NCBI GenBank assembly: GCA_017546705.1
Contig: JAFYSB010000016.1
Coordinates: 1 to 51,932 of the forward strand
Length of the DNA stretch: 51,932 nt
From: Paludibacteraceae bacterium
Lineage (GTDB): Bacteria > Bacteroidota > Bacteroidia > Bacteroidales > Paludibacteraceae
Direction: 5' to 3'
The notes below the pieces were generated by a model. The model was given only the letters and a program-made list of their open reading frames with translations. It was not told the origin of the DNA and did no database searches. Positions within the stretch are counted from its first letter, which is position 1; the number at the start of each line of letters is the position of its first letter. This document shows, piece by piece, positions 6,316-45,153 of the stretch. Both the position numbers and the translations under genes were made by a program.

Positions 6316-6343
6316 TTTAGTGTTTAGAGTTTAGTGTTTAGAG
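6316..6343 (+). repeat. 7-bp tandem repeat between mlaE and mlaF
   Basis: Four heptamers directly abutting the mlaE stop codon: TTTAGTG, TTTAGAG, TTTAGTG, TTTAGAG (a perfect 14-bp duplication), followed by GCGAGAG and the mlaF start 10 bp later. The same closing pattern recurs after mlaF at 7152-7171. Confidence 0.85.
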
Positions 6344-6353
6344 GCGAGAGATT

Positions 6354-7130
6354 ATGATTCAGGTAAAAGATGTAGTAAAGAGTTTTGATGGGAATGTGGT
6401 GCTGAACCATGTTTCTGCGAACTTTGAAGACGGGAAAGTAAATATGATCATCGGTCAGTCGGGATCAGGAAAAACTGTCTTGATGAAATCGATGATTGGT
6501 TTGCACCAAATAGATGGCGGGGAGATCGTGTTTGATACTCGCTCTGGGCAACAGAACTTAGCTGGGATGACGGAGAAAGAGGTGCGGATGTTGCACAGGG
6601 AAGTGGGAATGCTGTTTCAAGGTGCGGCATTGTTTGACAGTATGACCGTGCAGGAGAACGTGATGTATCCGCTGGAGATGTTTTCGGATATGACGGATGA
6701 GGAGAAGGTGGAAAGAGCACGTTTCTGTTTGGAGCGCGTGAATATGCCCGAGCGAGCGTTTGGACTGATGCCAAGTGAGATTAGTGGTGGTATGCAAAAG
6801 CGCGTGGCGATTGCCAGAGCGATTGCGTTGAATCCGAAGTATTTGTTCTGCGACGAGCCTAACTCGGGATTGGATCCAAGAACCAGTTTGGTGATAGACC
6901 AATTGATACAAGATATTACACGTGAGTACAATATATGTACGATTGTGAATAGTCACGACATGAACTCGATTATGGAGATTGGTGATAATATCGTATTCTT
7001 GCGCAATGGTGTGAAAGAGTGGCAGGGAAGTAGGCACGAGATATTTGAGGCAGATAATGAAGCACTGAATGATTTTGTGTTTGCGAGTGAGTTGTTTAAG
7101 AAGGTAAAGAGCGCTGCGCGCTCCGTTTAG
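6354..7130 (+). CDS. mlaF: MlaF-family ABC transporter ATP-binding protein
   Basis: A 258-aa cytoplasmic ATPase that powers the MlaE permease. Walker A GQSGSGKT lies at about 34-41, the Q-loop at LFQGAALFD, the signature ISGGMQKR at about 143-150, Walker B YLFCDEPNSGLDP shortly after, and the switch histidine in NSHDMNS. The ATG at 6354 follows a repeat-derived spacer with a weak purine-rich stretch. The last residues (SAARSV) and the TAG stop are encoded by a small perfect hairpin and a repeat heptamer, so the tail looks extended or replaced by the repeat; the family's core domain is complete without it. Confidence 0.93.
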   Translation: MIQVKDVVKSFDGNVVLNHVSANFEDGKVNMIIGQSGSGKTVLMKSMIGLHQIDGGEIVFDTRSGQQNLAGMTEKEVRMLHREVGMLFQGAALFDSMTVQENVMYPLEMFSDMTDEEKVERARFCLERVNMPERAFGLMPSEISGGMQKRVAIARAIALNPKYLFCDEPNSGLDPRTSLVIDQLIQDITREYNICTIVNSHDMNSIMEIGDNIVFLRNGVKEWQGSRHEIFEADNEALNDFVFASELFKKVKSAARSV

Positions 7131-7165
7131 AGGACGTCCTTCGGGCGATAGTTTAGCGTTTAGAG
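7109..7165 (+). repeat. Hairpin-punctuated heptamer repeat at the mlaF 3' end
   Basis: In order: a perfect hairpin GAGCGC-TGC-GCGCTC (7109-7123), the word TTTAGAG (7126-7132) whose TAG is the mlaF stop, a second hairpin CGTCC-TTC-GGGCG (7135-7147, one G-U pair), then the heptamers TTTAGCG (7152-7158) and TTTAGAG (7159-7165). The layout is word, hairpin, word, hairpin, word. It overlaps the last codons of mlaF. Confidence 0.75.
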
Positions 7166-7174
7166 GCAAGAGAA

Positions 7175-7468
7175 ATGAAACGACTATTATTGATATTGAC
7201 GATTGGTAGTGCATTGTGCGTTTGGGCGCAGCAGAAGCCAGCGCGAGTGCCTGCGTATCAAGGAGTGATTGAGCGGGTTCAGCCCAATGGCGATACGGTG
7301 TATGTGCGATTGCATGGCGACGAGAGAAGGCATTGGATGACATTGGAGGATGGCAAGACACTCGTGAAAGAAAATAAAAAAGGATATATCTGCTACGCCA
7401 AACAGAAGAAAAACGGGCAGATTGTAGCAACACGTAGAAAAGTAAAACAGAAAAAAAATAAGGTATGA
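7175..7468 (+). CDS. Small secreted protein resembling a free M6-protease propeptide
   Basis: A 97-aa exported protein: signal peptide to about residue 19 (ending CVWAQ), then about 60 residues, then a lysine-rich tail. The mature part shares a pattern with the propeptide region of the protease encoded next door: QPNG...HGDERRHW.T..DG...L..N here against QPDG...HGDEHFHWQT...GEWL in the protease. It contains no peptidase domain, so it looks like a stand-alone copy of the propeptide. By analogy with protease propeptides it could be a chaperone or inhibitor of the neighbouring enzyme; that is inference. Its stop overlaps the protease start by 4 bp (ATGA), implying translational coupling. Confidence 0.75.
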   Translation: MKRLLLILTIGSALCVWAQQKPARVPAYQGVIERVQPNGDTVYVRLHGDERRHWMTLEDGKTLVKENKKGYICYAKQKKNGQIVATRRKVKQKKNKV

Positions 7469-9102
7469 AAAGATTAAGCATTATAGTATTTATTCTTGTA
7501 ATGACTGTCGCAGCATGGGCTATTCCTGCTCGCCGTACAGGTATTGTGATGACTCAACCAGATGGTAGTGAAATAACTGTGTATCAACATGGAGACGAGC
7601 ATTTTCATTGGCAAACCAATGAGAAAGGTGAATGGTTGAAGTTAGGAGACGATGGTTTCTACCGCACAACGGAAGCATTGAGCACAGAACAGATAGAAGC
7701 AAGACGAATGGCTTCCCCAAAGCGTGCTGTACAAACTGCATATCCGTTGAATATCGCTCCTAAGGGTTTAGTAATCTTAGTGAATTTCACAGATGCTGTC
7801 TTTGAAACCGACAAAGCAGAAATGGACAGCATGCTGACAGCTGTAAATTATACTCGTAACTACTCTTATACCTACCGCGGAAAAACGTACAAAGTAACTG
7901 CACAAGGTTCTGCACGTCAGTATTTTGAAGATGCGTCGTTTGGAAAATACAAACTACAATTGGATGTGGTGGGTCCAGTAGCTGTGAGCAACACATATGC
8001 GTACTACGGACAAAACAACAGTGCTGGGCAAGACAAACAAGCAGAAAAAATGATTGAAGAGGCATGTAAATTGGCGGACGCCGAGTGCGATGTAGATTTT
8101 TCTCAGTACGACAATGACGAGGATGGATTCGTAGATTTTGTATTTGTAATCTACGCTGGTTATGGTGAAGCGGATGGTGGTGCGAGCAATACCATTTGGC
8201 CACACGCTTGGAATCTCTACTCCGCAGCGGGAAGAAGGTGCGAGTTAGATGGCAAAGTTGTAGACTTGTATGCCTGCGGTAATGAGTTGGATTACTACTC
8301 TAAGACACATACAGGTATTGGTACTTTCTGCCATGAGTTTAGTCATGTATTGGGGCTACCAGATCTGTATGATACTAAACAAACACATAATCAAAAAACA
8401 CTTGGTGCGTGGGATATTATGGACTATGGACCGTACAACAACGAAGGCAACACCCCCCCTATGTACTCAGCATACGAACGATTCTTTATGGGATGGATGA
8501 TCCCAAGATTAATCACAGAGTCTGAGAATATCGTATTAGAGGAACTTAACGACAGTCAAAATGCATTATTGATTTCTACCACAGACCAACATAATTTGAT
8601 AGGTAACGACCCGAATCCAACAAAATTCTATCTATTAGAAAACCGCCAACAAGAGGGTTGGGATACCTATCTACCTGGACACGGATTGATGCTAACGTAT
8701 GTGCAATATTCTTACAACAAATGGTCTCAAAACACAGTCAATAATACCAGCAAAAGTATGGGTATTGACTTGATTGAAGCAGACGGAAAAACACCTACAT
8801 CCTCACAAAATGGCTATGATGGTAAGGCAACAGATCTATTCCCAGCAGGTGCCACTTCATACACAAAAATTGCAGACCATGCGCTTGAGGAAATAGAGGA
8901 AGTAGATGGTGCAATTAAATTTAAGTATAAAGGAGGAGTAGAAAATCCTGAAACAGCGATAGAAGACGCAATTGTAAAAGAGCATGTGGTTGCGATCTAT
9001 AATATCTTGGGACAAAAGCAAACGACAACTAATATTGACGAATTGTCAAGAGGAACTTATGTCATTATAACCACCGAAGGTAGTAAGAAAATTGTACGTT
9101 GA
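7465..9102 (+). CDS. Secreted M6-family metalloprotease with T9SS sorting domain
   Basis: A 545-aa zinc endopeptidase of the immune-inhibitor-A-like M6 family. Signal peptide to about residue 19 (VAAWA), an N-terminal propeptide-like region (about 20-85), and the catalytic domain with a D-rich calcium-type loop (YDNDEDGFVDF) before the zinc site HEFSH at 290-294 and the downstream GAWDIMDYGPY segment. The C-terminus from about residue 485 is a short T9SS type A domain (AIYNILGQK...GTYVII...KKIVR). It should be exported and exposed at the cell surface to degrade extracellular protein. It is preceded by the free propeptide-like gene with a 4-bp overlap. Confidence 0.92.
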   Translation: MKRLSIIVFILVMTVAAWAIPARRTGIVMTQPDGSEITVYQHGDEHFHWQTNEKGEWLKLGDDGFYRTTEALSTEQIEARRMASPKRAVQTAYPLNIAPKGLVILVNFTDAVFETDKAEMDSMLTAVNYTRNYSYTYRGKTYKVTAQGSARQYFEDASFGKYKLQLDVVGPVAVSNTYAYYGQNNSAGQDKQAEKMIEEACKLADAECDVDFSQYDNDEDGFVDFVFVIYAGYGEADGGASNTIWPHAWNLYSAAGRRCELDGKVVDLYACGNELDYYSKTHTGIGTFCHEFSHVLGLPDLYDTKQTHNQKTLGAWDIMDYGPYNNEGNTPPMYSAYERFFMGWMIPRLITESENIVLEELNDSQNALLISTTDQHNLIGNDPNPTKFYLLENRQQEGWDTYLPGHGLMLTYVQYSYNKWSQNTVNNTSKSMGIDLIEADGKTPTSSQNGYDGKATDLFPAGATSYTKIADHALEEIEEVDGAIKFKYKGGVENPETAIEDAIVKEHVVAIYNILGQKQTTTNIDELSRGTYVIITTEGSKKIVR

Positions 9103-9103
9103 T

Positions 9104-9868
9104 ATGAAGATTATCTCTTATAATTTAAATGGTATCCGCAGCGCAATCAGCAAAGGGCTGTTTGATTGGCTGGCGGAAGAGCAACCCGATGTGTTTTGCA
9201 TACAAGAAAGCAAGGCACAGCCCGAGCAAATAGATGTGATGACCATGCAAGAATTGGGTTATCAAAGCTATATCCACTCGGCAGAAAAAAAAGGTTATTC
9301 GGGTGTAGCGATCTTTACTCGCATTCAGCCCGATCACGTGGTAGTGGGTATGGGTAATCCGAAATACGACTGCCAAGGGCGTGTGATTCGTGCGGATTAT
9401 GGCGATGTGACCGTGGTGTGTGTATATATTCCATCGGGCGAAGCGGAGGGACCAAAATACGAATACAAGATGGATTTTCTGGAGGATTTCTTGGTGTGGA
9501 TTAATGAACTGCGCAAAGAAAGACCAAATATCGTGGTATGTGGGGACTATAATATTGCCCACAAACCAATTGATATCAATCACCCAGAACGTCAAGTGGG
9601 CGTGAGTGGTTTCTTGCCTGAAGAGCGTGCGTGGTTAGATAAGTGGGAAGCAAGTGGTATGGTGGACACCTTCCGTATGTTTGACCAGAGCGGCGAGAAG
9701 TATAGTTGGTGGAGTTTCAGAGCGGCATCCAGAGCAAGAAATGTAGGTTGGCGTATTGATTACCACTGGGTAAGTGAGCCATTGAAAGAGCGCGTGAGCG
9801 ATGCGAAAATATTAAACGAAGTGGTACATTCCGACCATTGTCCTGTTAGTTTGGAGGTTAAAGGTTAG
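9104..9868 (+). CDS. xth: Exodeoxyribonuclease III (AP endonuclease)
   Basis: A 254-aa base-excision-repair enzyme of the ExoIII/APE1 family that cleaves at abasic sites and trims DNA 3' ends. Family landmarks are complete: [10 protein letters not shown] near the start, the metal ligand in CIQESKAQ, the tyrosine in [18 protein letters not shown], then [10 protein letters not shown] and the catalytic HSDHCPV near the end. The chosen ATG at 9104 follows the protease stop by 1 bp, so it is probably in the same transcript although functionally unrelated. An alternative in-frame start at 9092 would overlap the protease gene. Confidence 0.94.
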
Positions 9869-9885
9869 AGACGAAAGGCACGGAT

Positions 9886-10632
9886 ATGGATAAACTGAGA
9901 ACTGAACATTTGTATAAGAAGTACGGCAAGCGTACTGTAGTGAATGATGTGAGTATCTACCTTGAGCAAGGTGAGATTGTGGGTTTATTAGGACCGAATG
10001 GCGCTGGTAAGACAACCACATTCTATATGACAACAGGTTTGGTGACTGCCAATAGCGGAAAGATATTCCTCAACGATCTGGATATCACAAACATGCCGAT
10101 GTACACACGCGCAAAGATGGGAATAGGTTACCTACCACAAGAGGCAAGTGTATTCCGCAAAATGAGTGTAGAAGACAACATCTTGTCGGTATTGGAGATG
10201 ACCAATTTCACGAAAGAGTATCAAAAGGAAAAGTTGGAGCAACTTATCAAGGAGTTTAATCTTGGACATGTACGCAAGAACTTAGGTGACCGTTTGTCGG
10301 GTGGCGAGCGTCGAAGAACTGAGATTGCGCGATGCTTGGCGATTGAACCCAAGTTTGTGATGTTGGATGAGCCATTTGCAGGTGTGGACCCTATTGCTGT
10401 ACAAGAAATTCAAGATGTGGTTTGGCGATTGAAGGATAAAAATATTGGTATCTTGATTACCGACCACAATGTGGATGAAACGCTGATGATTACTGACCGT
10501 GCATACCTTTTGTTTGAGGGCAAGATTCTCTTCCATGGCACACCAGAGGAACTAGCAGCCAACCCAGTAGTGAGAAAGAACTATTTAGGTCGAGATTTTG
10601 AGTTGAAGAAGAAGACAAGAAGTGAAGAGTAA
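9886..10632 (+). CDS. lptB: LPS export ABC transporter ATP-binding protein LptB
   Basis: A 248-aa cytoplasmic ATPase that drives lipopolysaccharide extraction from the inner membrane by LptFG. Walker [10 protein letters not shown] (about 36-44), Q-loop YLPQEASVF, signature [13 protein letters not shown] (about 137), Walker [14 protein letters not shown] and H-loop ITDHNVDET are all typical of LptB, including the LptB-like LSGGERRR signature. It lies 17 bp after exonuclease III and ends directly against the start of the kelch lipoprotein gene (no spacer). It heads a run of envelope genes, consistent with LPS assembly. Confidence 0.93.
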
Positions 10633-11622
10633 ATGTCTATTAAGTATTGGATATTGAATATTCTGGTTATGATGTTGGTTGCATGCGAGGTTTCACAGCC
10701 CGATGTGCAATACAACATCCATGCTTGTGCACCTATTCCTGTGCCACGAGCATCTGCTATTAGTTTCGTAGTGGGAGAATATGCTTATGTGTTTGGTGGA
10801 AGAGACGCTGGTGGACATTACCTAAATGACTTATGGCGATATAATATAGCCGATGACACATGGATATCAATGGGGGAAACGCCACTTCAAGGTCGTGTAA
10901 ATGCTACAGCATGTATACACTATGGAATGGTATATATAGGGCTCGGATTCAATGGTAAATACAGCAACTCCACTGGATATTTATCTGACTGGTGGTCATA
11001 CGATGTAGCGACTGATACATGGAAGCAATTAAGCAATTTTCCTGCTAATACGACTGCGAGAGCGATTAGTCTGGTGGGAGATGGAGAATTGTATGTAGGG
11101 TATGGCTTCTGCTGGACATACGAGCGAGATATGTATCGCTACGATATTGCGAGCAATACTTGGACTTTTATAGATGTACACTTGGATAGAAAAGCATTCA
11201 CATTCCCCATGCGAAGTTTTGGAGGCGTGGGTGCAACATGTCAAAATCGCCATTTTGCAGGTACAGGTTTTCGAATATATAGCCTAAACTGGTGGGGAGA
11301 ATTTTTGCCAGAAGGTGAATGGGTAAAACGTAAAGATGTGCCTGGCTCTAAACGAACTATCGCAGCATGTGCAACTACGAATGATTTTGTATATGTAATT
11401 GGTGGTATGCATTTTGGAGGGGTCAATACAGACGGAAAGGTTTTGGATGATATCCAGCAATACAATCCACGTACTGATAGTTGGTTACACGTAGGCAATC
11501 TGCCTGATGGCGGAAGAATGAATCATATTGCGTTTAGTGTAGATAAGCGTGTATATGTAGGATTAGGGGAGAATGAAGATATACAAGTGTGTGGCGACTT
11601 ATATTGTATTTATGAGAAATAG
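10633..11622 (+). CDS. Kelch-repeat lipoprotein
   Basis: A 329-aa lipoprotein: signal peptide with lipobox LVAC (Cys18), followed by about five kelch motifs forming a predicted beta-propeller. Typical units are visible, for example AYVFGGRDAGGHYLNDLWRY then DTW, WWSYDVATDTWKQL, YRYDIASNTW, VYVIGGMHFGG with YNPRTDSW. Kelch propellers bind proteins or sugars; no enzyme motif is seen. Its start codon follows the lptB stop with no spacer and its end overlaps the Wzi-like gene by 11 bp, so it belongs to the envelope operon. A periplasmic or surface role in LPS or O-polysaccharide assembly is inference. It lacks the extra N-terminal repeat set of sialate mutarotases. Confidence 0.85.
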   Translation: MSIKYWILNILVMMLVACEVSQPDVQYNIHACAPIPVPRASAISFVVGEYAYVFGGRDAGGHYLNDLWRYNIADDTWISMGETPLQGRVNATACIHYGMVYIGLGFNGKYSNSTGYLSDWWSYDVATDTWKQLSNFPANTTARAISLVGDGELYVGYGFCWTYERDMYRYDIASNTWTFIDVHLDRKAFTFPMRSFGGVGATCQNRHFAGTGFRIYSLNWWGEFLPEGEWVKRKDVPGSKRTIAACATTNDFVYVIGGMHFGGVNTDGKVLDDIQQYNPRTDSWLHVGNLPDGGRMNHIAFSVDKRVYVGLGENEDIQVCGDLYCIYEK

Positions 11623-13090: not shown

Positions 13091-13806
13091 AGAATACTCA
13101 ACTACATATCATCATGCCCGTCAAAGACTCTATTGCGACAGCAGAGAGAGCCATTCGGGCAATTGTAGAAAATGGACACGCACTCTGTGTATATGACGAC
13201 AATTCGCTACCTGAGAATGCACAACGTTTGGATGAACTTGCTGCGGAATTGAATATTCAAGTGGTACATATCTCTACTCTGACAGATCACCCTTCGCCTA
13301 ATTACCGATTAGTCCTGCAACTGGCTGAGCAAGAGGCATTGCAAACAGGTCGTCATTTGGTTATAGTGGAAAGCGATGTGATCATCAAGACAGATACGCT
13401 GAATAGCATGCTCAAGGAGGTACAAGATGGCGTGGGTATGGTGGCTGCTGTTACTGTTGACGAAGAGGGGGTGTATAATTTCCCATACCATTACCTTCAT
13501 CGTTTGCGCTATCGTTTCTTGAGCAAGAAGACTATTGACACTAAAAAACGTTTCTCCTTCTGTTGTACTTTGCTGACTAATGAACTACTAAAGAAAGCTG
13601 ATTTTCAGCAACTTGATCCTTCTAAAAATTGGTACGACGTCACCATTTCCCATTGGTCAGTGGCTCTAAGTCTGCGCAATTTGCTGATGTTGGGAAACCC
13701 TGTCTTGCATCTTCCTCATTCTTCGCGCCCTTGGAAGCGATTGAAATACACCCATCCTTTGCGCTATTATTGGCGTAAGATAACTCAACGCTTAGACAAG
13801 ATATGA
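13084..13806 (+). CDS. Glycosyltransferase family 2
   Basis: A 240-aa GT-A-fold protein without membrane segments. It opens with the family-2 pattern LHIIMPVKDSIATAERAI and has an acidic DD pair in VYDDNS and a possible second in VESDVII where a DxD would bind the metal and sugar nucleotide. The C-terminal third is basic and aromatic (WKRLKYTHPLRYYW), suggesting membrane association. The donor and acceptor cannot be inferred. It overlaps the Wzi-like gene by 7 bp and the next gene by 4 bp (ATGA). The C-terminal half is not typical, so it may be a divergent subfamily. Confidence 0.8.
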   Translation: MVKNTQLHIIMPVKDSIATAERAIRAIVENGHALCVYDDNSLPENAQRLDELAAELNIQVVHISTLTDHPSPNYRLVLQLAEQEALQTGRHLVIVESDVIIKTDTLNSMLKEVQDGVGMVAAVTVDEEGVYNFPYHYLHRLRYRFLSKKTIDTKKRFSFCCTLLTNELLKKADFQQLDPSKNWYDVTISHWSVALSLRNLLMLGNPVLHLPHSSRPWKRLKYTHPLRYYWRKITQRLDKI

Positions 13807-20045: not shown

Positions 20046-20067
20046 AATTATATTTGATCATTTCATT

Positions 20068-20189
20068 GTTAGACCACTCCGTTGTTTGACCGCTTTGCTG
20101 TTAGACCACGTTGTTGCTAGATTCAAGAGTCTAACTTCTAACAGTGCTATGCACGGTCTAACTTCTAACAGTCCGCAGGACGGTCTAAT
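20068..20189. repeat. Heptamer repeat with covarying hairpins between grpE and dnaJ
   Basis: Two exact-length 27-bp units in tandem (20129-20155 and 20156-20182). Each has the heptamers GTCTAAC and TTCTAAC followed by a 13-bp hairpin block: GTGC-TAT-GCAC in one and GTCC-GCA-GGAC in the other. A third partial GTCTAAT (20183-20189) touches the grpE stop. The units differ only in the hairpin, and the third stem pair changes on both arms. Two copies in the opposite orientation, GTTAGAC, lie at 20068-20074 and 20100-20106, so larger foldback structures are also possible. Confidence 0.88.
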
Positions 20190-26736: not shown

Positions 26737-26778
26737 CACTAAACAGTAGCGCCATAGGCGCGTTCACTAAACACTAAA
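26737..26778. repeat. Heptamer repeat with hairpin between the DUF59 gene and lpxH
   Basis: Heptamer CACTAAA (26737-26743), a perfect hairpin GCGCC-ATA-GGCGC (26749-26761), then CACTAAA twice in tandem (26765-26778), ending 3 bp before the lpxH start codon. CACTAAA is the reverse complement of the TTTAGTG heptamer found after mlaE, so the same word occurs in both orientations relative to the genes. Confidence 0.85.
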
Positions 26779-29155: not shown

Positions 29156-30397
29156 ATGAGCGATACTTTTTATCATAATTTACCCAACGGTGTGCAAATT
29201 GTCCACCGCAAGACCACTTCTCCCGTCGTTTATGTCGGTCTGATGATTGGTGCAGGCACTCGCCACGAACTCCCCAATGAGAACGGCATGGCACACTACA
29301 TAGAGCATTGCGTCTTCAAGGGGACTGAACATTACACTGCCCGCCAAATCATCAATCATATTGAGGGTATTGGCGGCGAAATCAATGCCTATACCACCAA
29401 GGAGGAAACCACCTTCTACGCAGCCACCCTGCGCAATCACTTTCGCACCACCCTCCACCTGCTCGCAGAGATGGTGCTTCATCCCACTTTCAACAAGAAA
29501 GAAACTGACAAGGAAGTCACCGTCATCCTCGACGAGATAGAGAGTTATAATGATTCGCCCAGCGAGCTCATCTATGATGACTTCGAGAACATGATCTTCG
29601 AGGGCAGTTCACTCGCTATGCCTATCCTCGGCACCAAGAAAACCCTCCGCCGTATATCTAAGTCGCCCGATATTGCCCTCAACTGGATGCAGCAGCACTA
29701 TCGCCCTGAGCGCATGGTGCTCTTCGTACTGGGCAACGTCACACCCCAACAAGTCATCTCTGCCGCAAAAAAAGAACTCCTCGCCTCATCGCCTATTTCC
29801 TATAGCGAAGCGTCCTATAGCGAAGCGTCCTGTAACCAATCGCCTATCGCCTATACCCGAACATACAAACGCCACACCCACCAGACGCATATCATGCTGG
29901 GGTCGCATGCCTACCCTATCGGGCATCCTAAGCAGTTGACCATGTACCTGCTGAACAATATCTTGGGCGGTGGCAGCATGTCCAGCCGATTGTATCTGAG
30001 CCTTCGCGAAAAACACGGTCTAGTCTATAACATCGACTCGCAGGCAGTGCCCCTGAGTGATACGGGCTATTGGAATATCTATCTGGCGTGTGAGCCACAG
30101 CATAAGGAGCAATGCCTGGAGCTCTGCCACAAGGAGCTCAAGCAACTGCGCGACACGACGCTCACATCAGCGCAACTCCAACGAGCCCTGCGTCAGTTGG
30201 AGGGACAAATGGCTATATCGGCAGAGAACCAAGAAAATAATGCGCTGGCGATGGCGAAGCAGATGCTCTATCACCACCATGCCCCTGCATGGCAAGAGAC
30301 CTTTGCTAAAGTGCAACAGATCACCCCTACACAACTGCAAGACGTCGCCAATGAAGTCTTCGCCCCCGAAAGAATCTACACCCTGCTGTACGACTAA
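29156..30397 (+). CDS. M16-family zinc peptidase (pitrilysin/insulinase family)
   Basis: A 413-aa single-chain M16B-type peptidase, probably periplasmic or cytoplasmic since no signal peptide is seen. The inverted zinc motif HYIEH is at residues 47-51, and the downstream glutamate lies in the EVTVILDEIESYND helix. The second, inactive half contains the family's LNNILGGGSMSSRLY and REKHGLVYNI segments that form the chamber wall. Between the halves, residues 212 to about 233 (SPISYSEAS...) are encoded by a short repeat and read as low-complexity Ser/Tyr/Ala; family members have a variable linker here. Possible roles are peptide clearance or processing. Confidence 0.9.
   Translation: MSDTFYHNLPNGVQIVHRKTTSPVVYVGLMIGAGTRHELPNENGMAHYIEHCVFKGTEHYTARQIINHIEGIGGEINAYTTKEETTFYAATLRNHFRTTLHLLAEMVLHPTFNKKETDKEVTVILDEIESYNDSPSELIYDDFENMIFEGSSLAMPILGTKKTLRRISKSPDIALNWMQQHYRPERMVLFVLGNVTPQQVISAAKKELLASSPISYSEASYSEASCNQSPIAYTRTYKRHTHQTHIMLGSHAYPIGHPKQLTMYLLNNILGGGSMSSRLYLSLREKHGLVYNIDSQAVPLSDTGYWNIYLACEPQHKEQCLELCHKELKQLRDTTLTSAQLQRALRQLEGQMAISAENQENNALAMAKQMLYHHHAPAWQETFAKVQQITPTQLQDVANEVFAPERIYTLLYD
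29789..29853. repeat. Repeat tract inside the M16 peptidase gene
   Basis: TCGCCTA (29789-29795), a 15-bp unit TCCTATAGCGAAGCG repeated exactly twice (29798-29827), and TCGCCTA twice in tandem (29840-29853). The tract is in frame and encodes a low-complexity linker. The heptamer-plus-GC-rich-spacer layout resembles the intergenic repeats, although the spacer GCGAAGCG is not a good hairpin. Confidence 0.75.
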
Positions 30398-30419: not shown

Positions 30420-30474
30420 ATCGCACTATTCACGCACAATACACGCACAATAGACGGACAATAGACGCACTATT
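30420..30474. repeat. 11-bp tandem array downstream of the M16 peptidase
   Basis: Five 11-bp units. The second and third (CACGCACAATA) are identical, the fourth is GACGGACAATA, and the first and last end in CACTATT in place of CACAATA. It lies 23 bp after the peptidase stop and about 50 bp before the terminator. Confidence 0.75.
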
Positions 30475-30521
30475 CGTGGCCCCCACAGAAGACCCAGTGA
30501 AGCAAAACATATGCCAACAAT

Positions 30522-32572: not shown

Positions 32573-32578
32573 ACTTTT

Positions 32579-32640
32579 TCTAGATTGAATCTATAGGTTA
32601 TAGATGAACTATATGCTATAGATTTGTATAATTCTAGATT
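32579..32640. repeat. AT-rich word repeat downstream of the BACON gene
   Basis: Heptamers CTATAGG and TTATAGA in tandem (32591-32604), a later CTATAGA (32616-32622), and TCTAGATT at both borders (32579-32586 and 32633-32640). It abuts the minus-strand stop codon at 32639. Confidence 0.5.
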
Positions 32641-34258: not shown

Positions 34259-34320
34259 ACCTTAAAAAATTTTGTTGTTAAACATTATGAGGTTTTCCTC
34301 GTTATTTATATAAGTATATC

Positions 34321-35625: not shown

Positions 35626-35636
35626 AATCCTTCTCC

Positions 35637-36560: not shown

Positions 36561-36579
36561 AACTATTATTATTTAGTAG

Positions 36580-38382: not shown

Positions 38383-38412
38383 ATTCCTTTCTTAATTAAG
38401 TGTTAGGTTTGA

Positions 38413-41400
38413 TTAGAATCCTAATTTTACGGTCAATGTGAATTGGCGTGGAACAGGAGAAGACACACCACCTGTGTTATAATACTCAGGGTCACGTCCG
38501 TTCAACTTCTTGTCAGCATATGCCAACCACAAGTTGGTTGCACTAAGTTTCACACCAAAGCTTGATACAGCATTTTGTCCCTCAAAATACTTCTTAGGTA
38601 AATCGTATGCCAAAGACAATTCCTTGAGTCGGATGAAATCACCCTTAGCCACACGCTCAGTAGAGTAGTTGTATGCAGAATATGCATTGCTGAGTGCATC
38701 GATCTCACGCATTTGGCGAACGGTAGGAATGGATGGGATGGTTGTAACATTCTCATCACCAGGTACCATCCAGCGGTTCTTCATTTCCTTCATGCTGGCT
38801 GTAAGGTCGCTATAGTCGCTGCTATATACAGGGCAGAGGTTATCCAAACGGAGGACGTTACCGAAGCTATAAGTAAAGAACACATTGAGTTTCAAACCTT
38901 TCCAAGAGAAGGTATTACCAAACGAACCAGTAATCTTAGGATCAATAGTACCCTCGTATTTCAAATAATCTATATTTTCGTATTCTTGGAAGTAGATGGC
39001 TGCATAGTTACCAGGTCCCACTACTTGAGTATGCTCAGCGTCAATGAAGAATGTAGGAAGACCTTCCTCTGTCAGACCTGCGAATGGAATACTATAGAGT
39101 GCACCAATTGGACGACCTTCAGTACGACCCACACCATTTACGAGCGAATACACTTGTGAACGCGAATCCAATTTAGTAATGGTATTCTCCGCCCAACCAA
39201 AAATCCAGTCAGTTGTCCACTTAAAGTCCTTAGTCTTAATGTTGGTAGTTGAGATAGTAAACTCACAACCTGTTGACTCCATGGTAGCATCATTCGCCAA
39301 CTTGGTGGTAACACCACCCACACCCATGGTTTGAGTATAACCGATAAGGTCGAAGTTGTTACGGCGATACCAGTCGAACTCTACATTGATACGGTTGTCT
39401 ACAAAACCGAAGGCTACACCGATATTGAGCTCATTTTTCTTCTCATAGGTCAATTCAGAATTTTCCAATGCCGCAAGGATAATAGCAGACTCATTTGCAG
39501 ATGTACTTGGACGCCATGGAGTAAATGACTGGAATACTGCTAATGAGTTGCTTGCAGGACCACGGTCTGCTGTCAATGAGTAGCTAGCCTTCAAGCTGGC
39601 ATAAGTCCAAGCCTTGCCAAATGCAGGCGCCCACCAATTTTCCTCATGCGCATTCCACGAACCAGATACGTTCCATGTAGGCAACCAGCGCGCTTGGCGG
39701 CTCTTACCTAACATGTTCGAACCTTCGTAACGAAGCGTTCCGTTGATGGTGTAACGTCCTTTGTATGAATAAGTTGCCATTCCGAAGAATGCAAGGTTGC
39801 GAAGGTATTGGAAACTATTAGAATAGTAGTCTGTACCTTCTTCTTGACTTTGCTTGAAGAGGCGATAATCCACATATGGAATACCACCGTTGTTGTATTG
39901 ATAACCCCAACCACGGAACCATATCGCTTGACGGTCGGTAGAGTTCAACTCAGAACCTGCAAACAAGTTGAGAATATGATCTCCAGTCTTACCCAAGTCC
40001 GCATTGTAAGCAACTGTAGCACGGAGATCCATAGAAGTCAATGAATATTCGGTCAAGTCATAGATACCACCCTTTGGCAATACGGTCTCAGGCAATGCCA
40101 ATGGATCATCTGGATCTGAATAGAGATATGGGTTGGAGTCGCGAATTGTAGCATTCTCTGGATCAATACCTGCACGATATGCACGTGCTTGGTTGCTATC
40201 GTCCTTAATATTGTGCTCTTGGCGACTTGAATAGTAGCGAATAGCTGCCAATGCGGCAATCTCAAGACCACGAACAGGCTTCCAGTTAATATCACCTTGG
40301 AACTTCAAGTCGGTTACTTTGATGTCAATATAGTTGTTTGCCAACTCATCGTTGATATTGAAATCGCAGTAGTTACGGCGATAAGTCTCCTCAGGATCCA
40401 TCGCACGCGATGTATTCATCGCATAAGAGAATGGGTTGATATCAAACTCACGACTCACAGTACCATTGATAGGGTCAGTGCTTGCAGAAATAGTACCAGG
40501 CGCTTGTTGCTTACGGTAACTACCCATAGTAGCAATACCTACGGTCAGTTTTTGTTTGCTAGTAGTAGGCAATACATCGTAACTAGCATTCATCATTCCC
40601 GTAAAACGAGCTACTTCACTAGCTTTGTACCATCCTGGATCTTGCATAGCAGACAGAGACGCATACACACGTGCACGCTCACTACCTGTAGAGAAAGATA
40701 CTGAGTGGTTGTGCATTACCGTTTGATTGAATAGCTCTGCAAACCAATCAGTATTGCGGAACTCAGCCGCACGCAGATAAGCATTCTTAGCCTCTGGAGT
40801 ATTAGGCAAACCTACATTGCCACCCTTAGCCGCATCAATCAAGGCATACATACGACCATACACACCAGAGTTCTTTGCTCCATAGAGCGAAGAATATTCG
40901 AGCCAACCTTTGCGCTCAAACTCTTGGTAGATACCCATTTGCTCTTGCGAGTTACAGATATTATAGTCATCATATGAAGGCACCATACGATAGGTAACTT
41001 CACCAGTATAGTTCAATTTTGATTGACCAGCTTTACCTTTCTTGGTAGTTACAACAATCACACCCGCCATCGCGCGCGCACCATATATAGAGGTAGCAGA
41101 ACCGTCTTTCAAGATTTGGAAACTCTCAATATCCTCCGAGTTGATACCAGAAATTGCACTCGCAATCAAAGTAGTAGCATCACCTGATGACAAGTCATCT
41201 GCGCTCAACTCCACAGCATCCTCCAAAATGACGCCATCCACAACCCACAAAGGCTTGCTCGCACCGTAAATAGATGTTGCACCACGCACACGGATCTTAG
41301 GTGCAGTACCAAAAGTACCACTCACGTTTTGCACGCTCACACCAGCGGCACGGCCTTCCAAACTGCGGCTCACATCAGCCACACCCGAAAGCATGGTCTC

Positions 41401-41769
41401 ATCCGCCTCCAACTTGGTAGCAGCACCCGTAAACAAGCGCTTATCTTGCTTCACCATACCGGTAACGACAACCTCCTCGATTTGTTGTGCATCACTCTCG
41501 AGGGTAACGTTGATGTTTGGTTTTACAGGAACCGTCATCGTCTTGTAACCCATGTAGGAGATAATCAGATTTTTTACTCCAGCAGGAACTGTCAACTCAA
41601 AGAAACCATCAAAGTCAGTCACTGTACCGACAGTAGTTCCTTCAGCCACAACGTTAGCACCAATCGCGCCAACACCTGCTTCTTCATAAACTGTACCAGT
41701 TACTTTAGTCTGAGCCGAAGCACAAACCACCAGCAACAAGGTAACCATTAAACAGTAAATACGTTTCAT
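38413..41769 (-). CDS. SusC/RagA-family TonB-linked outer-membrane transporter
   Basis: An 1118-aa outer-membrane importer. After the signal peptide (VVCASA) comes a carboxypeptidase-like domain (about 20-100, YEEAGVGAIGANV, TVTDFDGFFELTVP), a TonB box region (IEEVVVTGM), the plug domain (SLEGRAAGVSVQN, IRVRGATSIYGASKPLWVVDG) and a 22-strand-type barrel ending PRQFTLTVKLGF. It starts the import locus and is followed by susD, the metallohydrolase, the DUF4302 and the BACON genes. Its promoter lies 95 bp upstream. No sigma/anti-sigma or hybrid two-component regulator is adjacent. Confidence 0.96.
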   Translation of the reverse strand: MKRIYCLMVTLLLVVCASAQTKVTGTVYEEAGVGAIGANVVAEGTTVGTVTDFDGFFELTVPAGVKNLIISYMGYKTMTVPVKPNINVTLESDAQQIEEVVVTGMVKQDKRLFTGAATKLEADETMLSGVADVSRSLEGRAAGVSVQNVSGTFGTAPKIRVRGATSIYGASKPLWVVDGVILEDAVELSADDLSSGDATTLIASAISGINSEDIESFQILKDGSATSIYGARAMAGVIVVTTKKGKAGQSKLNYTGEVTYRMVPSYDDYNICNSQEQMGIYQEFERKGWLEYSSLYGAKNSGVYGRMYALIDAAKGGNVGLPNTPEAKNAYLRAAEFRNTDWFAELFNQTVMHNHSVSFSTGSERARVYASLSAMQDPGWYKASEVARFTGMMNASYDVLPTTSKQKLTVGIATMGSYRKQQAPGTISASTDPINGTVSREFDINPFSYAMNTSRAMDPEETYRRNYCDFNINDELANNYIDIKVTDLKFQGDINWKPVRGLEIAALAAIRYYSSRQEHNIKDDSNQARAYRAGIDPENATIRDSNPYLYSDPDDPLALPETVLPKGGIYDLTEYSLTSMDLRATVAYNADLGKTGDHILNLFAGSELNSTDRQAIWFRGWGYQYNNGGIPYVDYRLFKQSQEEGTDYYSNSFQYLRNLAFFGMATYSYKGRYTINGTLRYEGSNMLGKSRQARWLPTWNVSGSWNAHEENWWAPAFGKAWTYASLKASYSLTADRGPASNSLAVFQSFTPWRPSTSANESAIILAALENSELTYEKKNELNIGVAFGFVDNRINVEFDWYRRNNFDLIGYTQTMGVGGVTTKLANDATMESTGCEFTISTTNIKTKDFKWTTDWIFGWAENTITKLDSRSQVYSLVNGVGRTEGRPIGALYSIPFAGLTEEGLPTFFIDAEHTQVVGPGNYAAIYFQEYENIDYLKYEGTIDPKITGSFGNTFSWKGLKLNVFFTYSFGNVLRLDNLCPVYSSDYSDLTASMKEMKNRWMVPGDENVTTIPSIPTVRQMREIDALSNAYSAYNYSTERVAKGDFIRLKELSLAYDLPKKYFEGQNAVSSFGVKLSATNLWLAYADKKLNGRDPEYYNTGGVSSPVPRQFTLTVKLGF

Positions 41770-41863
41770 TATAATGTTATTTATAATTAATTTTATCCTA
41801 ATTTACACCATGCACTGCTATCGTTTTCTACAAAGCACCTTTACAAAAACGATAAAAATCGCG

Positions 41864-41895
41864 CAAAGTTACTACTTTTTTTTGAAACAACCAAA
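41864..41895 (-). promoter_or_regulatory. Promoter of the SusC/SusD locus
   Basis: Minus strand: -33 TTTG (41892-41895), 20-bp spacer with an eight-A tract, -7 TAACTTTG (41864-41871). Confidence 0.78.
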
Positions 41896-41959
41896 TATTT
41901 ACCAAGAAAAATGTGTTTTTTAACATATTTATCACATCATTTATATGTTTTATAACATA

Positions 41960-41997
41960 AAAATCGCCTACTCAATCTAACTTGGGTAGGCGATTTT
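41960..41997 (-). terminator. Terminator of serS
   Basis: A 12-bp perfect stem (GTAGGCGATTTT with its complement), extendable by four more pairs, with a T-run on the minus-strand 3' side. It lies 72 bp after the serS stop. Confidence 0.8.
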
Positions 41998-42069
41998 GAT
42001 TGGTATTTGGTAGTATTTTTTTTGAATCTCTCAGTCTGATCTTATCCTATTGTTCTATCAAAAAAAATA

Positions 42070-43440
42070 TTACTTTATCATTTCGCAACCCATATATGGT
42101 TGGAGCGCAGCAGGAATACGAATACCCTCTGGTGTTTGATTGTTCTCCAACAACGCCGCCACAATACGAGGCAATGCCAATGCTGAACCATTGAGTGTGT
42201 GGCAGAGCGTTACCTTCTTATCCTCAGATCGTCGGTAACGGCAGTGCAAGCGATTAGCTTGATAGGTATCGAAATTAGAAGTTGAAGACACTTCCAACCA
42301 ACGATGTTGTGCCTCTGAATACACTTCAAAGTCATAGCAGAGCGCCGCAGTGAATGACATATCACCACCACTTAAGCGAAGTACACGATAAGGGAGTTCG
42401 AGTTTTTGGAGCAATCCCTCTACGTGCTCCAACATTTCCTTGTGACTAGCATCGGAATGTTCTGGAGTGTCGATACGCACAATCTCCACCTTGCTAAACT
42501 CGTGAAGACGGTTCAAACCACGCACATCCTTGCCATATGAACCTGCCTCGCGGCGGAAGCACTGGGTGTAAGCGCAGTTCTTGATAGGGAGTTGTGCCTC
42601 CTCAAGAATTACATCACGATAGATATTGGTTACAGGTACTTCTGCTGTAGGAATGAGATAGAGATTATCCAATTGGCAGTGGTACATTTGTCCCTCTTTA
42701 TCAGGCAATTGACCTGTACCATAACCACTGGCTTCATTGACCACGGTAGGAGGCATAATCTCGGTATATCCTGCCTTGTTCGCCTCAGCCAAGAAGAAGT
42801 TAATCAACGCGCGCTGCAGGCGCGCGCCCATACCTATATATACAGGGAAGCCTGCACCAGAGATTTTGACACCGAGGTCAAAATCGATGAGGTTGTATTT
42901 CTTCGCCAATTCCCAGTGAGGGAGTTTTGCAGTTGACAGTTGACAATTAACAGTTGACAGTTGTTCGTCGGTAGCGGTATCCCAATCGCGGAGAGCGATG
43001 GTACCTTCAGCAGCGAGTTTGTCAAGCATAGGTTGGTTCGCCCAATTGCCTATTTTCACCACGAGGTTATCTTCTGCACTTCCGCCCTCTGGTACGAGGT
43101 CATAAGGTACGTTAGGGATAGTAAGGAGAAGGGAAGTCAATGCCTCTTCTGCCTTCGCCATCTCTTGTTCGTAGCCAGGGATAGCTTGTTTGAGTGCGCC
43201 TGTTTGTGCTTTGGCAGCCTCTGCCTCTTCTTTTTTGCCTTGTGCCATGAGCGCACCAATAGACTTGGAGATGCGGTTCATCTCCGCTGAGGCAGTATCC
43301 TTCTTTTGCTGTGCTGCTTTGCGCTCGGTATCAAGAACAATCACTTGCTCAATAGTCTCAGCAGCATTGGCAAAATGCTTCTTTTCCAAGCCCGCAATAA
43401 TAGCTACCTTATTGTCGTATATTTGTTTGAGTGTTAGCAT
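42070..43440 (-). CDS. serS: Seryl-tRNA synthetase with a repeat-encoded insertion
   Basis: A 456-aa class II synthetase charging tRNA-Ser. The N-terminal coiled-coil arm (about 30-110) and the catalytic core are complete, with motif 2 FRREAGSYGKDVRGLNRLHEF and motif 3 in LPRIVAALLENNQTPEGIRIP. It is about 30 residues longer than most bacterial SerRS. Part of the surplus is residues 159-171 (QLSTVNCQLSTA), encoded by five CAGTTGA-type heptamers in the linker just before the conserved PHWELAKKY. Active-site residues are unaffected. It is third in rplU-rpmA-serS, separated from rpmA by a terminator and by hairpin repeats 10-70 bp upstream of its start codon. Confidence 0.95.
   Translation of the reverse strand: MLTLKQIYDNKVAIIAGLEKKHFANAAETIEQVIVLDTERKAAQQKKDTASAEMNRISKSIGALMAQGKKEEAEAAKAQTGALKQAIPGYEQEMAKAEEALTSLLLTIPNVPYDLVPEGGSAEDNLVVKIGNWANQPMLDKLAAEGTIALRDWDTATDEQLSTVNCQLSTAKLPHWELAKKYNLIDFDLGVKISGAGFPVYIGMGARLQRALINFFLAEANKAGYTEIMPPTVVNEASGYGTGQLPDKEGQMYHCQLDNLYLIPTAEVPVTNIYRDVILEEAQLPIKNCAYTQCFRREAGSYGKDVRGLNRLHEFSKVEIVRIDTPEHSDASHKEMLEHVEGLLQKLELPYRVLRLSGGDMSFTAALCYDFEVYSEAQHRWLEVSSTSNFDTYQANRLHCRYRRSEDKKVTLCHTLNGSALALPRIVAALLENNQTPEGIRIPAALQPYMGCEMIK
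42930..42964. repeat. 7-bp tandem repeat CAGTTGA inside serS
   Basis: Five heptamers: CAGTTGA, CAGTTGA, CAATTAA, CAGTTGA, CAGTTGT. The minus-strand reading encodes QLSTVNCQLSTA. The same heptamer occurs in the rplU leader (44289) and in the lolA-like gene (45039). Confidence 0.9.
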
Positions 43441-43450
43441 ACAAAAGTCT

Positions 43451-43510
43451 TGTTCAGTGCCCGTAAACGGGCTGTTCAGCGCGGCTAAGCCGCTGTTCTG
43501 GATTGTTCAG
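43451..43510. repeat. TGTTCAG words with hairpins in the serS leader
   Basis: Word TGTTCAG plus hairpin GCCCG-TAAA-CGGGC (43451-43472), word TGTTCAG plus hairpin GCGGC-TAA-GCCGC (43473-43493), then TGTTCTG and a final TGTTCAG (43504-43510). Both stems are perfect and unrelated in sequence. The tract ends 10 bp upstream of the serS start codon. Confidence 0.88.
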
Positions 43511-43526
43511 AGTTGTAAATAAAAAC

Positions 43527-43571
43527 AAATTTCTCCTGCCGAATTGCGTATGCAATCGGTAGGAGAAATTT
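43527..43571 (-). terminator. Terminator after rpmA
   Basis: A long stem (about 20 bp with one bulge and one G-U pair, starting AAATTTCTCCT) with loop GTAT and a T-rich run on the minus strand. It should end or attenuate rplU-rpmA transcription before serS. Confidence 0.8.
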
Positions 43572-43591
43572 TAGTTTATTTCTCTATCCGA

Positions 43592-43855
43592 TTATGCCTC
43601 AGCAATAGGTTGGATAGATACGTAAGATTTGTTGTTACGCTTCTTTTGGAAGCATACGATACCATCTGTAAGAGCGAAAAGAGTGTGGTCAGAACCCATA
43701 CCGATATTCTCGCCTGGGTTGTGTACAGTACCACGTTGACGCACGATGATGTTACCTGCTTTAGCGAATTGACCACCAAAGATTTTTACACCAAGTCGTT
43801 TGCTTTCTGATTCACGGCCGTTCTTGGAACTACCGACACCTTTCTTATGTGCCAT
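43592..43855 (-). CDS. rpmA: 50S ribosomal protein L27
   Basis: An 87-aa ribosomal protein whose N-terminus reaches the peptidyl-transferase centre. It begins [16 protein letters not shown], the mature-type N-terminus without the cleaved extension of Firmicutes, and contains [10 protein letters not shown] and [15 protein letters not shown]. It is 35 bp after rplU; this pairing is near universal in bacteria. Confidence 0.97.
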
Positions 43856-43890
43856 ATCTCTTAAACTTTGCTTTTAAAAAGGTTAAACAA

Positions 43891-44208
43891 TTAAGCCAAA
43901 ACGATCTCCTTAACGATGAGATTGGTCAAATCTTGACGATGGCCGTTCAATTTACGATAGCCTTTGCGACGTTTTTTGTGGAAAACGAGAACTTTCTCGC
44001 CACGGCACTCATTGTCGAGTACTTCGCAAACAACTTTAGCGCCCTCTACAACAGGAGCACCTACTTTCACTTCTCCGTCATTATCAACGAGAAGCACTTT
44101 CTCGAATGTTACCTCAGCGCCCTTCTCAGCAGCCATGCGGTTAACAAAGAGTTTCTTGCCAGCCTCAACACGGTATTGGAGGCCTTGCATTTCTACAATT
44201 GCGTACAT
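43891..44208 (-). CDS. rplU: 50S ribosomal protein L21
   Basis: A 105-aa ribosomal protein that binds 23S rRNA. It begins [19 protein letters not shown] and ends with the basic, rRNA-binding [15 protein letters not shown] and LTNLIVKEI segments. Length and sequence are typical for Bacteroidota. It has a 165-nt structured leader and a strong promoter. Confidence 0.97.
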
Positions 44209-44373
44209 TTAATCAAATGTTTTTTAATTAGTTACATCGGTCAGGCGAGATGCAGAGTCTTCGACGTTGGCATACCAAACGCAATTGGCAGTTAACAGTT
44301 GACAATTGACAGTTAACAATGGTATCATCCGTCCCCTCGGCAGCGCTACTTGGAAGCCCAAAAGCCGAAAAAG
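44209..44373 (-). promoter_or_regulatory. Structured 5' leader of rplU-rpmA
   Basis: About 165 nt between the predicted transcription start and the rplU start codon. On the RNA strand a first stem TCGGC/GCCGA encloses an inner TTGG-GCTT-CCAA hairpin, and a second stem ATACCA/TGGTAT (44320-44325 with 44272-44277) encloses the CAGTTGA-type heptamers. Length and structure suggest autoregulation by L21 or another ribosomal protein, as known for many ribosomal operons; I cannot assign a named leader family. Confidence 0.55.
44289..44316. repeat. 7-bp tandem repeat CAGTTGA in the rplU leader
   Basis: Four heptamers: CAGTTAA, CAGTTGA, CAATTGA, CAGTTAA, followed by a degenerate fifth. The block sits at the tip of a predicted leader stem, so it lengthens the loop without breaking the stem. 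Confidence 0.88.
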
Positions 44374-44377
44374 CGTG

Positions 44378-44409
44378 CAAAGGTACTACTTTTTTTTGAA
44401 CTGACCAAA
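44378..44409 (-). promoter_or_regulatory. Promoter of rplU-rpmA(-serS)
   Basis: Minus strand: -33 TTTG (44406-44409), 20-bp spacer with an eight-A tract, -7 TACCTTTG (44378-44385). Confidence 0.82.
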
Positions 44410-44538
44410 TATTTTTTTATTTTTTTACAGAAAGCCCTTCAAAAGAGTCTATACACACCCTTTATCCGTCAGCCAATCAGCCAAAAACGATGCAGCAGAC
44501 CACAAACAACATACTAGGAAAGTATTAGATGGTAACTG

Positions 44539-44573
44539 AGTGGTATCGAAATGCTTTCGGAGTGGTTTCGAGA
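44539..44573. repeat. Word-hairpin-word element after the lolA-like gene
   Basis: GAGTGGTAT, a perfect hairpin CGAAA-TGC-TTTCG (44548-44560), then GAGTGGTTT. Same plan as the other hairpin-punctuated repeats, with a 9-bp word. The remaining 44410-44538 shows no feature. Confidence 0.6.
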
Positions 44574-44592
44574 AATAAAGCGGAATTACCCA

Positions 44593-45153
44593 TCACCTCA
44601 AGTCATTGACAAAGGCATCCTCCTTTTCAATAGCAAAAGAAGGAGTTTCATCTGTATAACGAGCATTATCAAGACGAAGCGTGGTAAGCTTGCCTTCGTC
44701 CTCATGTACCTCAATGGCAGCAGGCAACAAAGTGGCAGTTGCGATGCGCAACACAAACTTCTGAATACCAGCCGAACGGTCGTGTGGAGTTAGCGTAATT
44801 TGCGTCTTGTCGCCTACGACTTTCTCAGCGTACTGGCAAACAGGCAATAAGGCTTGCGCATATAGGAAAGGATTGGTTTGGGTAAGTTCCTCTTCTGTAG
44901 GCGTGGAAAGAGTCAATTCCTCTGTATCATCACTATATATATATAAGGTATTGCCATCATATGCCGCTTCCATCGCAAACATAGTCAAGGCAAATTGCTT
45001 GCCGTGCATTGCAAGATTACCCGTGTAGGTCATTGGGGTAGTTGACAATTGAGAGTTGACAGTTGTCAACATGAAATCTGACACCAAAGTCTTTTGCTCC
45101 AAAGTCGCGAAGAGGGATTGGAGTATTGTGAACGTTATTAGCAATAGTTTCAT
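44593..45153 (-). CDS. LolA-like outer-membrane lipoprotein carrier protein
   Basis: A 186-aa exported protein of the LolA-like fold: signal peptide to about residue 16, then strands such as YTGNLAMHGKQFALTMFAMEAAYDGNTLYIYSDDTEELTL (residues about 43-82) and VLRIATATLLPAAIEV. LolA ferries lipoproteins across the periplasm; Bacteroidota homologues are often found after ftsK, as here with a 1-bp gap. Residues 30-38 (TTVNSQLST) are encoded by CAGTTGA-type heptamers in the early strand region. Sequence identity to classical LolA is low, so the assignment rests on fold pattern and context. Confidence 0.75.
   Translation of the reverse strand: MKLLLITFTILQSLFATLEQKTLVSDFMLTTVNSQLSTTPMTYTGNLAMHGKQFALTMFAMEAAYDGNTLYIYSDDTEELTLSTPTEEELTQTNPFLYAQALLPVCQYAEKVVGDKTQITLTPHDRSAGIQKFVLRIATATLLPAAIEVHEDEGKLTTLRLDNARYTDETPSFAIEKEDAFVNDLR
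45039..45066. repeat. 7-bp tandem repeat CAGTTGA inside the lolA-like gene
   Basis: Four heptamers: TAGTTGA, CAATTGA, GAGTTGA, CAGTTGT. It encodes TVNSQLST on the minus strand, the same reading phase of the word as in serS. Confidence 0.85.

Follow-up and report, generated by a model that had tools for sequence, protein, structure and literature searches.

Heptamer word arrays punctuated by covarying mini-hairpins in a Paludibacteraceae genome and its relatives

Tandem repeats with a 7-bp unit are widespread in prokaryotes: across a wide range of genomes they are the most abundant intergenic tandem repeat, and, according to the same survey, there is no clear clue to their function (PMC6344855). 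TAACTGA arrays have been described in Beggiatoaceae, Cyanobacteria, and five Bacteroidetes, among them Paludibacter propionicigenes (MacGregor 2015, PMC4679880), a member of the family studied here; GGGAATC and GGGGATT repeats are described from Xanthomonas and Nostoc, respectively (PMC4692102); and slippage was proposed earlier as the cause of the period (cited in PMC4679880, PMC4692102). The subject of this analysis is a 51,932-nucleotide stretch (the window; contig JAFYSB010000016.1) of a Paludibacteraceae bacterium, in which arrays of several heptamer words are scattered over many loci and, in a subset, alternate with compact hairpins. The words and hairpins listed by an initial annotation are all present, where it placed them or within 1-2 bases. 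The arrays exceed chance expectation and share words between unrelated loci, the hairpins have constant flanks and covarying stems, and the elements are gained and replaced at orthologous sites. We tentatively interpret them, with confidence that falls somewhat short of even, as a composite multi-word heptamer satellite, in which slippage combined with template switching may favor words that fold as single strands.

The window is contig 8 of a draft genome of 2,105,339 bases in 82 contigs (G000; G numbers denote the genomes and L numbers the loci or sequence stretches compared). Its closest named relatives are Paludibacteraceae, and its lpxH-like protein is 80-91% identical to counterparts in 13 gut metagenome-assembled genomes (L031-L043), mostly of that family. 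Are its arrays more than chance would supply? In the window alone, three period-7 arrays reach a score of at least 11, whereas 20 dinucleotide shuffles average 0.05; in a larger sample of the same genome (the window and 20 further stretches; 339,554 bases, 16% of the genome), 47 arrays reach a score of 9, against a mean of 1.0 in three shuffles, and 35 reach 11, against none. The shuffled control that the initial annotation had proposed thus gives a count well below the observed one, and the head-to-tail 7-bp units by which tandem heptamers (short tandemly repeated repetitive sequences, or heptameric simple sequence repeats) are defined are present in excess. However, its arrays of about two copies at 7152, 26765, and 29840 are singly near noise and count only as members of the genome-wide family. 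At score 9, the larger sample also holds 8 arrays of period 6, 11 of period 8, and 23 of period 11, alongside harmonics at periods 14 (35) and 21 (27). Period 7 tops periods 4-15 in all five sets examined (our own sample, G060, stretches of G014, the 14 lpxH loci nearest the window's, and 66 other lpxH loci); with the harmonic at 14 set aside, period 11 ranks second in each.

Words recur at unrelated places. Across the whole genome, GTTTAGNGTTTAGNG occurs at 168 places, against none for the same pattern reversed, which served as the control for word counts; two arrays fall into the same word class with a probability of 0.02-0.05, versus ~0.0009 for uniform choice among 1172 classes, a null that is lenient because the words are A+T-rich. 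At L048 and L058, AGTTGAG, CGTTTAG, and AGTTTAG follow one another in a single register, which fits the suggestion of the initial annotation that the words share an origin, at least for some of them. Within the family, GTTTAGNGTTTAGNG turns up sporadically: 35 of 120 genomes and 21 of 33 genera carry it, with 0 to 202 matches per genome. Genus g184 spans the whole range, with 202 matches in one genome and none in two others. These uneven counts look like species-specific bursts of one word, even within one genus. The reversed pattern gives 0-1 matches per genome and strand, bar a few higher counts (5 in G523), except in G476, where it scores 39 against 1 for the word itself and may be a heptamer word in its own right.

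What of the hairpins? They are inserted between words in only a subset of arrays, and there the elements depart from the repeat-only definition of tandem heptamers as given in the cited portions of the literature. Direct-repeat pairs that enclose a hairpin (57 of 1084, against 15 of 481, 13 of 488, and 20 of 494 in shuffles) form a mostly noise-like list, and the analysis therefore turned to types defined by their flanks, with the insert left free. Type A (AAACAGTA-N(9-20)-GTTCACTAAA) has 34 matches in 6 of the 61 genomes of the genus, 16 of them in our own, with none for the reversed control in any genome; 31 of the 34 inserts are fully paired hairpins. Nineteen of the 22 distinct inserts pair, whereas 5,000 trials with re-dealt arms give a mean of 8.9 and a maximum of 16. 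Type B (TCTAACAG-N(5-16)-GTCTAA) occurs in 38 of the 61 genomes and reaches 91 matches in G024 (reversed control 4 there, 0-1 elsewhere). Among the 150 matches listed, a lower bound on the total, 124 inserts are fully paired, 14 need G.T pairs, 8 contain G.A pairs (e.g., GCGAGC-AAA-GCGAGC), and 4 fail; the same matches comprise 85 distinct inserts, of which 61 pair fully, versus 28.4 after re-dealing (maximum 40 in 2,000 trials). Stem arms covary in both types, the outcome that supports the persistence of hairpin form proposed by the initial annotation, although one of its perfect hairpins, the second near 7109 (7135-7147), contains a T.G pair. The type C pattern is a loose one that takes in many unrelated inserts, 21 of the 92 being perfect, and the type D search gave three matches, none scored as symmetric by the script used. 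Some hairpin cores are common to several types, whose words differ: GCGAAGC is found in A, B, and C, and GCGGCTCTGCCGC in A and C. A minimal type B pattern has no match in 394 other genomes of the phylum, a set that includes five members of the same order but no member of the same family.

Which molecule folds? Among the type B matches listed, the word strand contains 18 G.T pairs and 1 A.C, under a scoring that favored G.T; an innermost C.A in GCCCATTAGGC was scored as part of a 5-nt loop, and a second type B count includes it. Minimal type B elements have 2-bp stems, with wobbles allowed, and some stems contain a T-A or wobble pair; their distinct inserts carry GNA in 15 of 25 three-base loops and GNNA in 11 of 12 four-base loops, and the complementary TNC and TNNC loops are absent from them. 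GNRA is the loop rule of RNA, and half of the eight distinct GNNA loops of type B violate it. Minimal type B inserts mostly coincide with the DNA mini-hairpin sequences GCGNAGC and GCGNNAGC; GNA or GNNA loops closed by at least two G-C pairs form extraordinarily stable DNA mini-hairpins (PMC4686876), a description that fits most minimal type B inserts but not most of type A. When flanks were relaxed and near-complete pairing was required, the GNA/GNNA loop lay on the word strand in 24 of 31 antisense type B elements and 25 of 44 sense ones; its presence on the word strand even in antisense elements argues against a structure in host mRNA. Under the same settings, types A-C together show no fixed transcript orientation (81 sense, 54 antisense, 18 undecided). 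The folding molecule could be single-stranded DNA or some RNA that is not the host transcript.

Comparison of orthologous sites reveals that period and hairpin form persist while words and stems change, as the initial annotation had proposed; conserved, unrelated spacers without repeat turnover are not what is seen. A comparable stretch in relatives was available for 41 of 111 array or hairpin clusters of our genome (a few counted twice in overlapping stretches). In the lpxH spacer, GCGCC-ATA-GGCGC is shared by the window and L033, GCGGC-TCT-GCCGC occupies L037 and L038, and GCGGC-TTT-GCCGC L101; TCTAACA words with mini-hairpins stand in L034, L036, L040, and L042 and GGCGAGA-type heptamers in L032 and L035; by eye, neither array nor hairpin is seen there in L045 and L046. 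The mlaE-mlaF spacer holds GTTTAGT words in the window and a GTTATGA-type array in G014; type B units at L153 correspond to TAATCGA words in L067 and ACACATA words in L060, and TTTAGTG words at L160 to a run of type C units in G060. At L164, the stem has 2 bp in our genome and 5 bp in G060. G060, G025, and G014 lack the array upstream of rplU, and G038 and G054 have different sequence there. The serS array is absent from all six closest relatives; at the same point, the more distant L174 has CAATTCT-type heptamers, and hairpin-like inserts are seen by eye in L180, L181, L183, L184, L186, L188, and L189. Among the remaining sites, some change in copy number alone (L131, L140), the variation between close relatives that is characteristic of tandem heptamers, and others remain similar; the G014 orthologue of the grpE-dnaJ type B units (20129..20188) differs solely in both loops. 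A different, G+C-rich kind of palindrome (CCCCTCCCTAAAGGGAAGGG and CCCTCTCC types) lies at the points of the window's heptamers in the lpxH spacer of L031 and L039 and in serS of L184, L188, and L189; it is a further dispersed repeat class.

Where do the arrays lie relative to genes, as called with a home-made codon scorer? At score 10, our sample has 38 arrays: 23 between co-directional genes, 2 in divergent spacers, 12 in genes, and 1 at an edge; 619,955 bases of G060 have 20 between co-directional genes, 4 divergent, 4 convergent, and 28 in genes. The preference for spacers inside operons that the initial annotation had noted is weak, given that co-directional spacers are the majority in any case and that many arrays lie in genes; three of its own sites fall within open reading frames (ORFs), at 29798-29854 (M16 peptidase), 42930-42963 (serS), and 45040-45065 (ORF 44593-45153). 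A guard function, in which a 7-bp word with a stop codon blocks all three frames, was rejected: in co-directional spacers, stops in three frames are at least as frequent on the antisense strand (17 of 23 in our genome, 13 of 20 in G060) as on the sense strand (15 of 23 and 10 of 20), and in-gene arrays have none in the gene direction (0 of 12 in our genome, 0 of 28 in G060), as must be so in any gene.

How might such elements originate? Arrays of 7-bp words from a shared lexicon would arise, amplify in species-specific bursts, and replace each other, presumably at tolerant sites such as spacers and permissive protein loops. A subset carries an additional module, a compact hairpin between word copies (CTAACA-hairpin-GGTCTAA, and the A, C, and D forms), which may be kept because the word strand, when single-stranded, folds as DNA and foldable units get copied. 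Copying could proceed by slippage, template switching at microhomology, and fold-back priming, all performed by ordinary replication and repair enzymes, and the stems would drift through G.T intermediates and indels with pairing maintained. Human Pol theta primes fold-back synthesis from two base pairs, as the cited part of one study documents (PMC11292364); by analogy, and with no claim of homology, a bacterial counterpart may act here. In a bolder version, which is possible but doubtful, the word and its mini-hairpin would be minimal selfish DNA replicators that have no gene of their own and are copied by host replication and repair enzymes at rates set by word-strand foldability. Structure alone would then be selected and stems would wander freely as long as they pair; words would burst species by species, and permissive sites would be refilled repeatedly, even inside essential genes. 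Ordinary local slippage, with seven bases as the polymerase's favored step and the hairpins as bystanders, would suit the abundance of heptamers and the earlier proposals mentioned above; identical words at unrelated loci, a serS array whose word occurs genome-wide but is not available at the orthologous site of relatives, and insert pairing far above that of re-dealt arms make it quite improbable. Slippage alone leaves the shared lexicon and the covarying hairpins without an explanation.

Dedicated enzymes present another option. Units akin to repetitive extragenic palindromic (REP) elements or miniature inverted-repeat transposable elements could be moved in trans by a single-strand transposase that recognizes a hairpin and its foot, in line with the constant flanks, the many loci in both orientations, the single-strand structure, and the GTAG foot that type A has in common with REPs. 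However, PF01797 (RAYT) has no match in G000, G014, G060, or G024, the last being richest in type B, and matches in 22 of the 61 genus genomes, all genomes searched for enzymes being incomplete drafts and other transposase families not having been searched; nor were fixed ends seen at aligned sites, or duplications of the target other than the word. A RAYT/REP origin was rejected on the basis of these absences, and transposase-moved units of this REP-like or miniature kind are improbable. Ku end joining was likewise rejected (PF02735 in 0 of 11 genomes). Template-coded addition, in which a reverse transcriptase or similar enzyme writes words from RNA templates, would explain the 7-bp unit, its loose last position, and the recurrence of words across many loci, and RVT_1 is found in 5 of 11 genomes (three matches in G000, and G060, G025, G467, and G497); it is absent from G014, G024, and G540, which are 94-98% complete and yet rich in words or hairpins, so that reverse transcriptase was rejected and the chance of such an origin is very slight. 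None of the three enzymes that were searched for, RAYT, Ku, and RVT_1, tracks the copies. Alternatively, the host may select the hairpins in RNA, for stability, pausing, or translational spacing in polycistronic mRNAs; pairing alone would matter, and stems could drift. This reading, unlikely overall, draws on the co-directional neighbors of 23 of the 25 intergenic arrays that our genome has between two genes, on the mild sense excess, and above all on retained hairpins, the best evidence for host selection. In 17 comparisons with the same hairpin type (the L133 cluster, L139:2644, and L158 versus L213 omitted as ambiguous), 11 inserts are identical, a strong conservation that makes a host function possible, against a divergence of 13-40% at the most variable codon phase of the genes alongside; decayed copies are under-counted because flanks and pairing were part of detection. 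Two of the other six differ in the loop only, one by a compensatory pair and the loop, two in stem length or sequence with pairing kept, and one by a single stem change (L126 versus G060), a G.T pair on the sense strand. The strand-bound loops of antisense elements, the many type B stems of only 2 bp, the arrays inside genes, and the wholesale replacement of hairpins by hairpin-free arrays all speak against RNA. Conservation of the retained hairpins nonetheless weighs against the composite satellite, together with several other observations: type A has 3 A.C and no G.T pairs as scored (one possible T.G was read as loop), so the G.T asymmetry of type B is not general; few type A hairpins have GNA loops; ViennaRNA gives 2-bp hairpins no stability as DNA, its energies fail to separate DNA from RNA, and its DNA parameter set is not known to include a GNA bonus; and word orientation shows no clear pattern by eye against GC skew at four-fold sites over 340 kb and 220 kb of G060.

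Table 1. Heptamer arrays, hairpins, and one further repeat in the window.
Feature	Position	Strand	Context and detail
AATTATG-type heptamer array	5410..5436	+	divergent spacer upstream of mlaE
GTTTAGT/GTTTAGA array	6315..6343	+	fills mlaE-mlaF spacer
Hairpins between GTTTAGA/GTTTAGC words	7109..7166	-
Hairpin GAGCGC-TGC-GCGCTC	7109-7123		in last codons of mlaF ORF
Hairpin CGTCC-TTC-GGGCG	7135-7147		one T.G pair
Type B, period-16 array of TTAGACC words and minimal hairpins	20066..20121	- (word strand minus)	grpE-dnaJ spacer
Two type B units, word TCTAAC	20129..20188	+	hairpins GTGC-TAT-GCAC (20144-20154), GTCC-GCA-GGAC (20171-20181)
Type A unit, word CACTAAA	26737..26779	+	DUF59-lpxH spacer; hairpin GCGCC-ATA-GGCGC (26749-26761)
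In-gene type C mini form	29798..29854	+	M16 peptidase gene; CCTATA-GCGAAGC-GTCC twice, then TCGCCTA words
GCGAAGC copies of type C mini form	29805-29811 and 29820-29826		M16 peptidase gene
CAGTTGA heptamer array	42930..42963	+	within serS
Type D units, word CTGAACA on minus strand	43451..43509	-	rpmA-serS spacer
Type D hairpin GCCCG-TAAA-CGGGC	43459-43472
Type D hairpin GCGGC-TAA-GCCGC	43481-43493
CAGTTGA/CAGTTAA array	44289..44318	+	upstream of rplU
GAGTGGT repeat flanking hairpin CGAAA-TGC-TTTCG (44547-44559)	44538..44567	+	resembles 11-bp family, not heptamers
AGTTGAC/AATTGAG array	45040..45065	+	inside ORF 44593-45153

Pfam neighbors of these elements are MlaE, an ABC ATPase, DnaJ, GrpE, FeS_assembly_P (the DUF59 of the initial annotation), a calcineurin-like phosphoesterase, an M16 peptidase, seryl-tRNA synthetase, L27, and L21. 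The 9-bp word that had been grouped with the heptamers at 44538 is, by eye only, closer to a separate 11-bp family (L215:4344). Once 7 and its harmonics are set aside, 11 is the commonest tandem period, and two 11-bp arrays stand in the window. One, at 5310-5374, is built on the palindrome TACGTA (TACGTATATCC and variants); arrays of this kind recur at L115:10145, L123:159, and at least nine places in G060, and may represent sets of operator sites or a second class of satellite. The other, an 11/22-bp array at 30422-30475 (CGCACAATACA), directly follows the M16 peptidase gene and has similar units in L126 and L210. An Rfam scan of the window gave three matches, none at an array; one, at 47815-47889 on the minus strand near a tRNA (48102-48175), is to the Bacteroidetes FopS small RNA family (75.1 bits, gathering threshold 56).

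How, then, do these elements compare with known repeats? REP elements and the bacterial interspersed mosaic elements built from them are dispersed small spacer hairpins moved by RAYT (PF01797); a REP is a single hairpin of conserved sequence with GTAG or GGAG at its foot. The elements described here are likewise small hairpins dispersed in spacers. At the foot, hairpins of type A have GTAG, those of type B ACAG, and those of type C ATAG. Unlike the conserved stems of REPs, their stems are free (22 distinct inserts among 34 for type A, 85 among the 150 listed for type B), their flanks are a heptamer word, their units lie in tandem, and none of the copy-rich genomes that were tested has RAYT. 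Rickettsia palindromic elements, also tolerated as insertions inside protein genes, are longer and conserved in sequence, unlike the present hairpins. The GNA/GNNA mini-hairpins of Hirao and colleagues, as presented in the cited part of a later paper (PMC4686876), are a chemical motif; here the same form is a dispersed genomic repeat module. The Xanthomonas and Nostoc heptamers resemble the present ones in period, intergenic location, and variation of length and sequence among close relatives (PMC4692102; PMC6344855), but they are G-rich words of the quadruplex type, and the cited portion of the study does not describe hairpin punctuation (PMC4692102). Three in-gene arrays of G060 (L200 12760, L206 7348, L217 18741) consist of TCGGGAA/CCCGATT words and share GGGAATC with the Xanthomonas repeat (PMC4692102), by either chance or a common mechanism in different phyla.

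No description of a hairpin-punctuated, word-swapping heptamer form was found in the open-access literature searched. The genus provides orthologous sites at which the word is replaced and the period retained; its covarying hairpin module, with a DNA-type loop signature, suggests that what is copied is a folded single strand; and bursts and empty sites are on view across dozens of related genomes. Together, these make the origin of period 7 testable by comparison. The closest precedent is the TAACTGA repeat: as here, it consists of short tandem 7-mers that are mostly intergenic, often near start codons, and at times in genes, with many copies per genome and empty sites in close relatives (PMC4679880). 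As far as the cited part of that study goes, one word is involved and its near variants are rarely repeated in the main genome (PMC4679880), whereas each of the present genomes uses several words, swaps them at orthologous sites, and places a hairpin module between them. The view of the initial annotation that neither cyanobacterial heptanucleotide repeats nor REP elements show this architecture thus needs narrowing: tandem heptamers were already known, including from this family, and what goes beyond the cited descriptions is hairpin punctuation and word-for-word turnover only.

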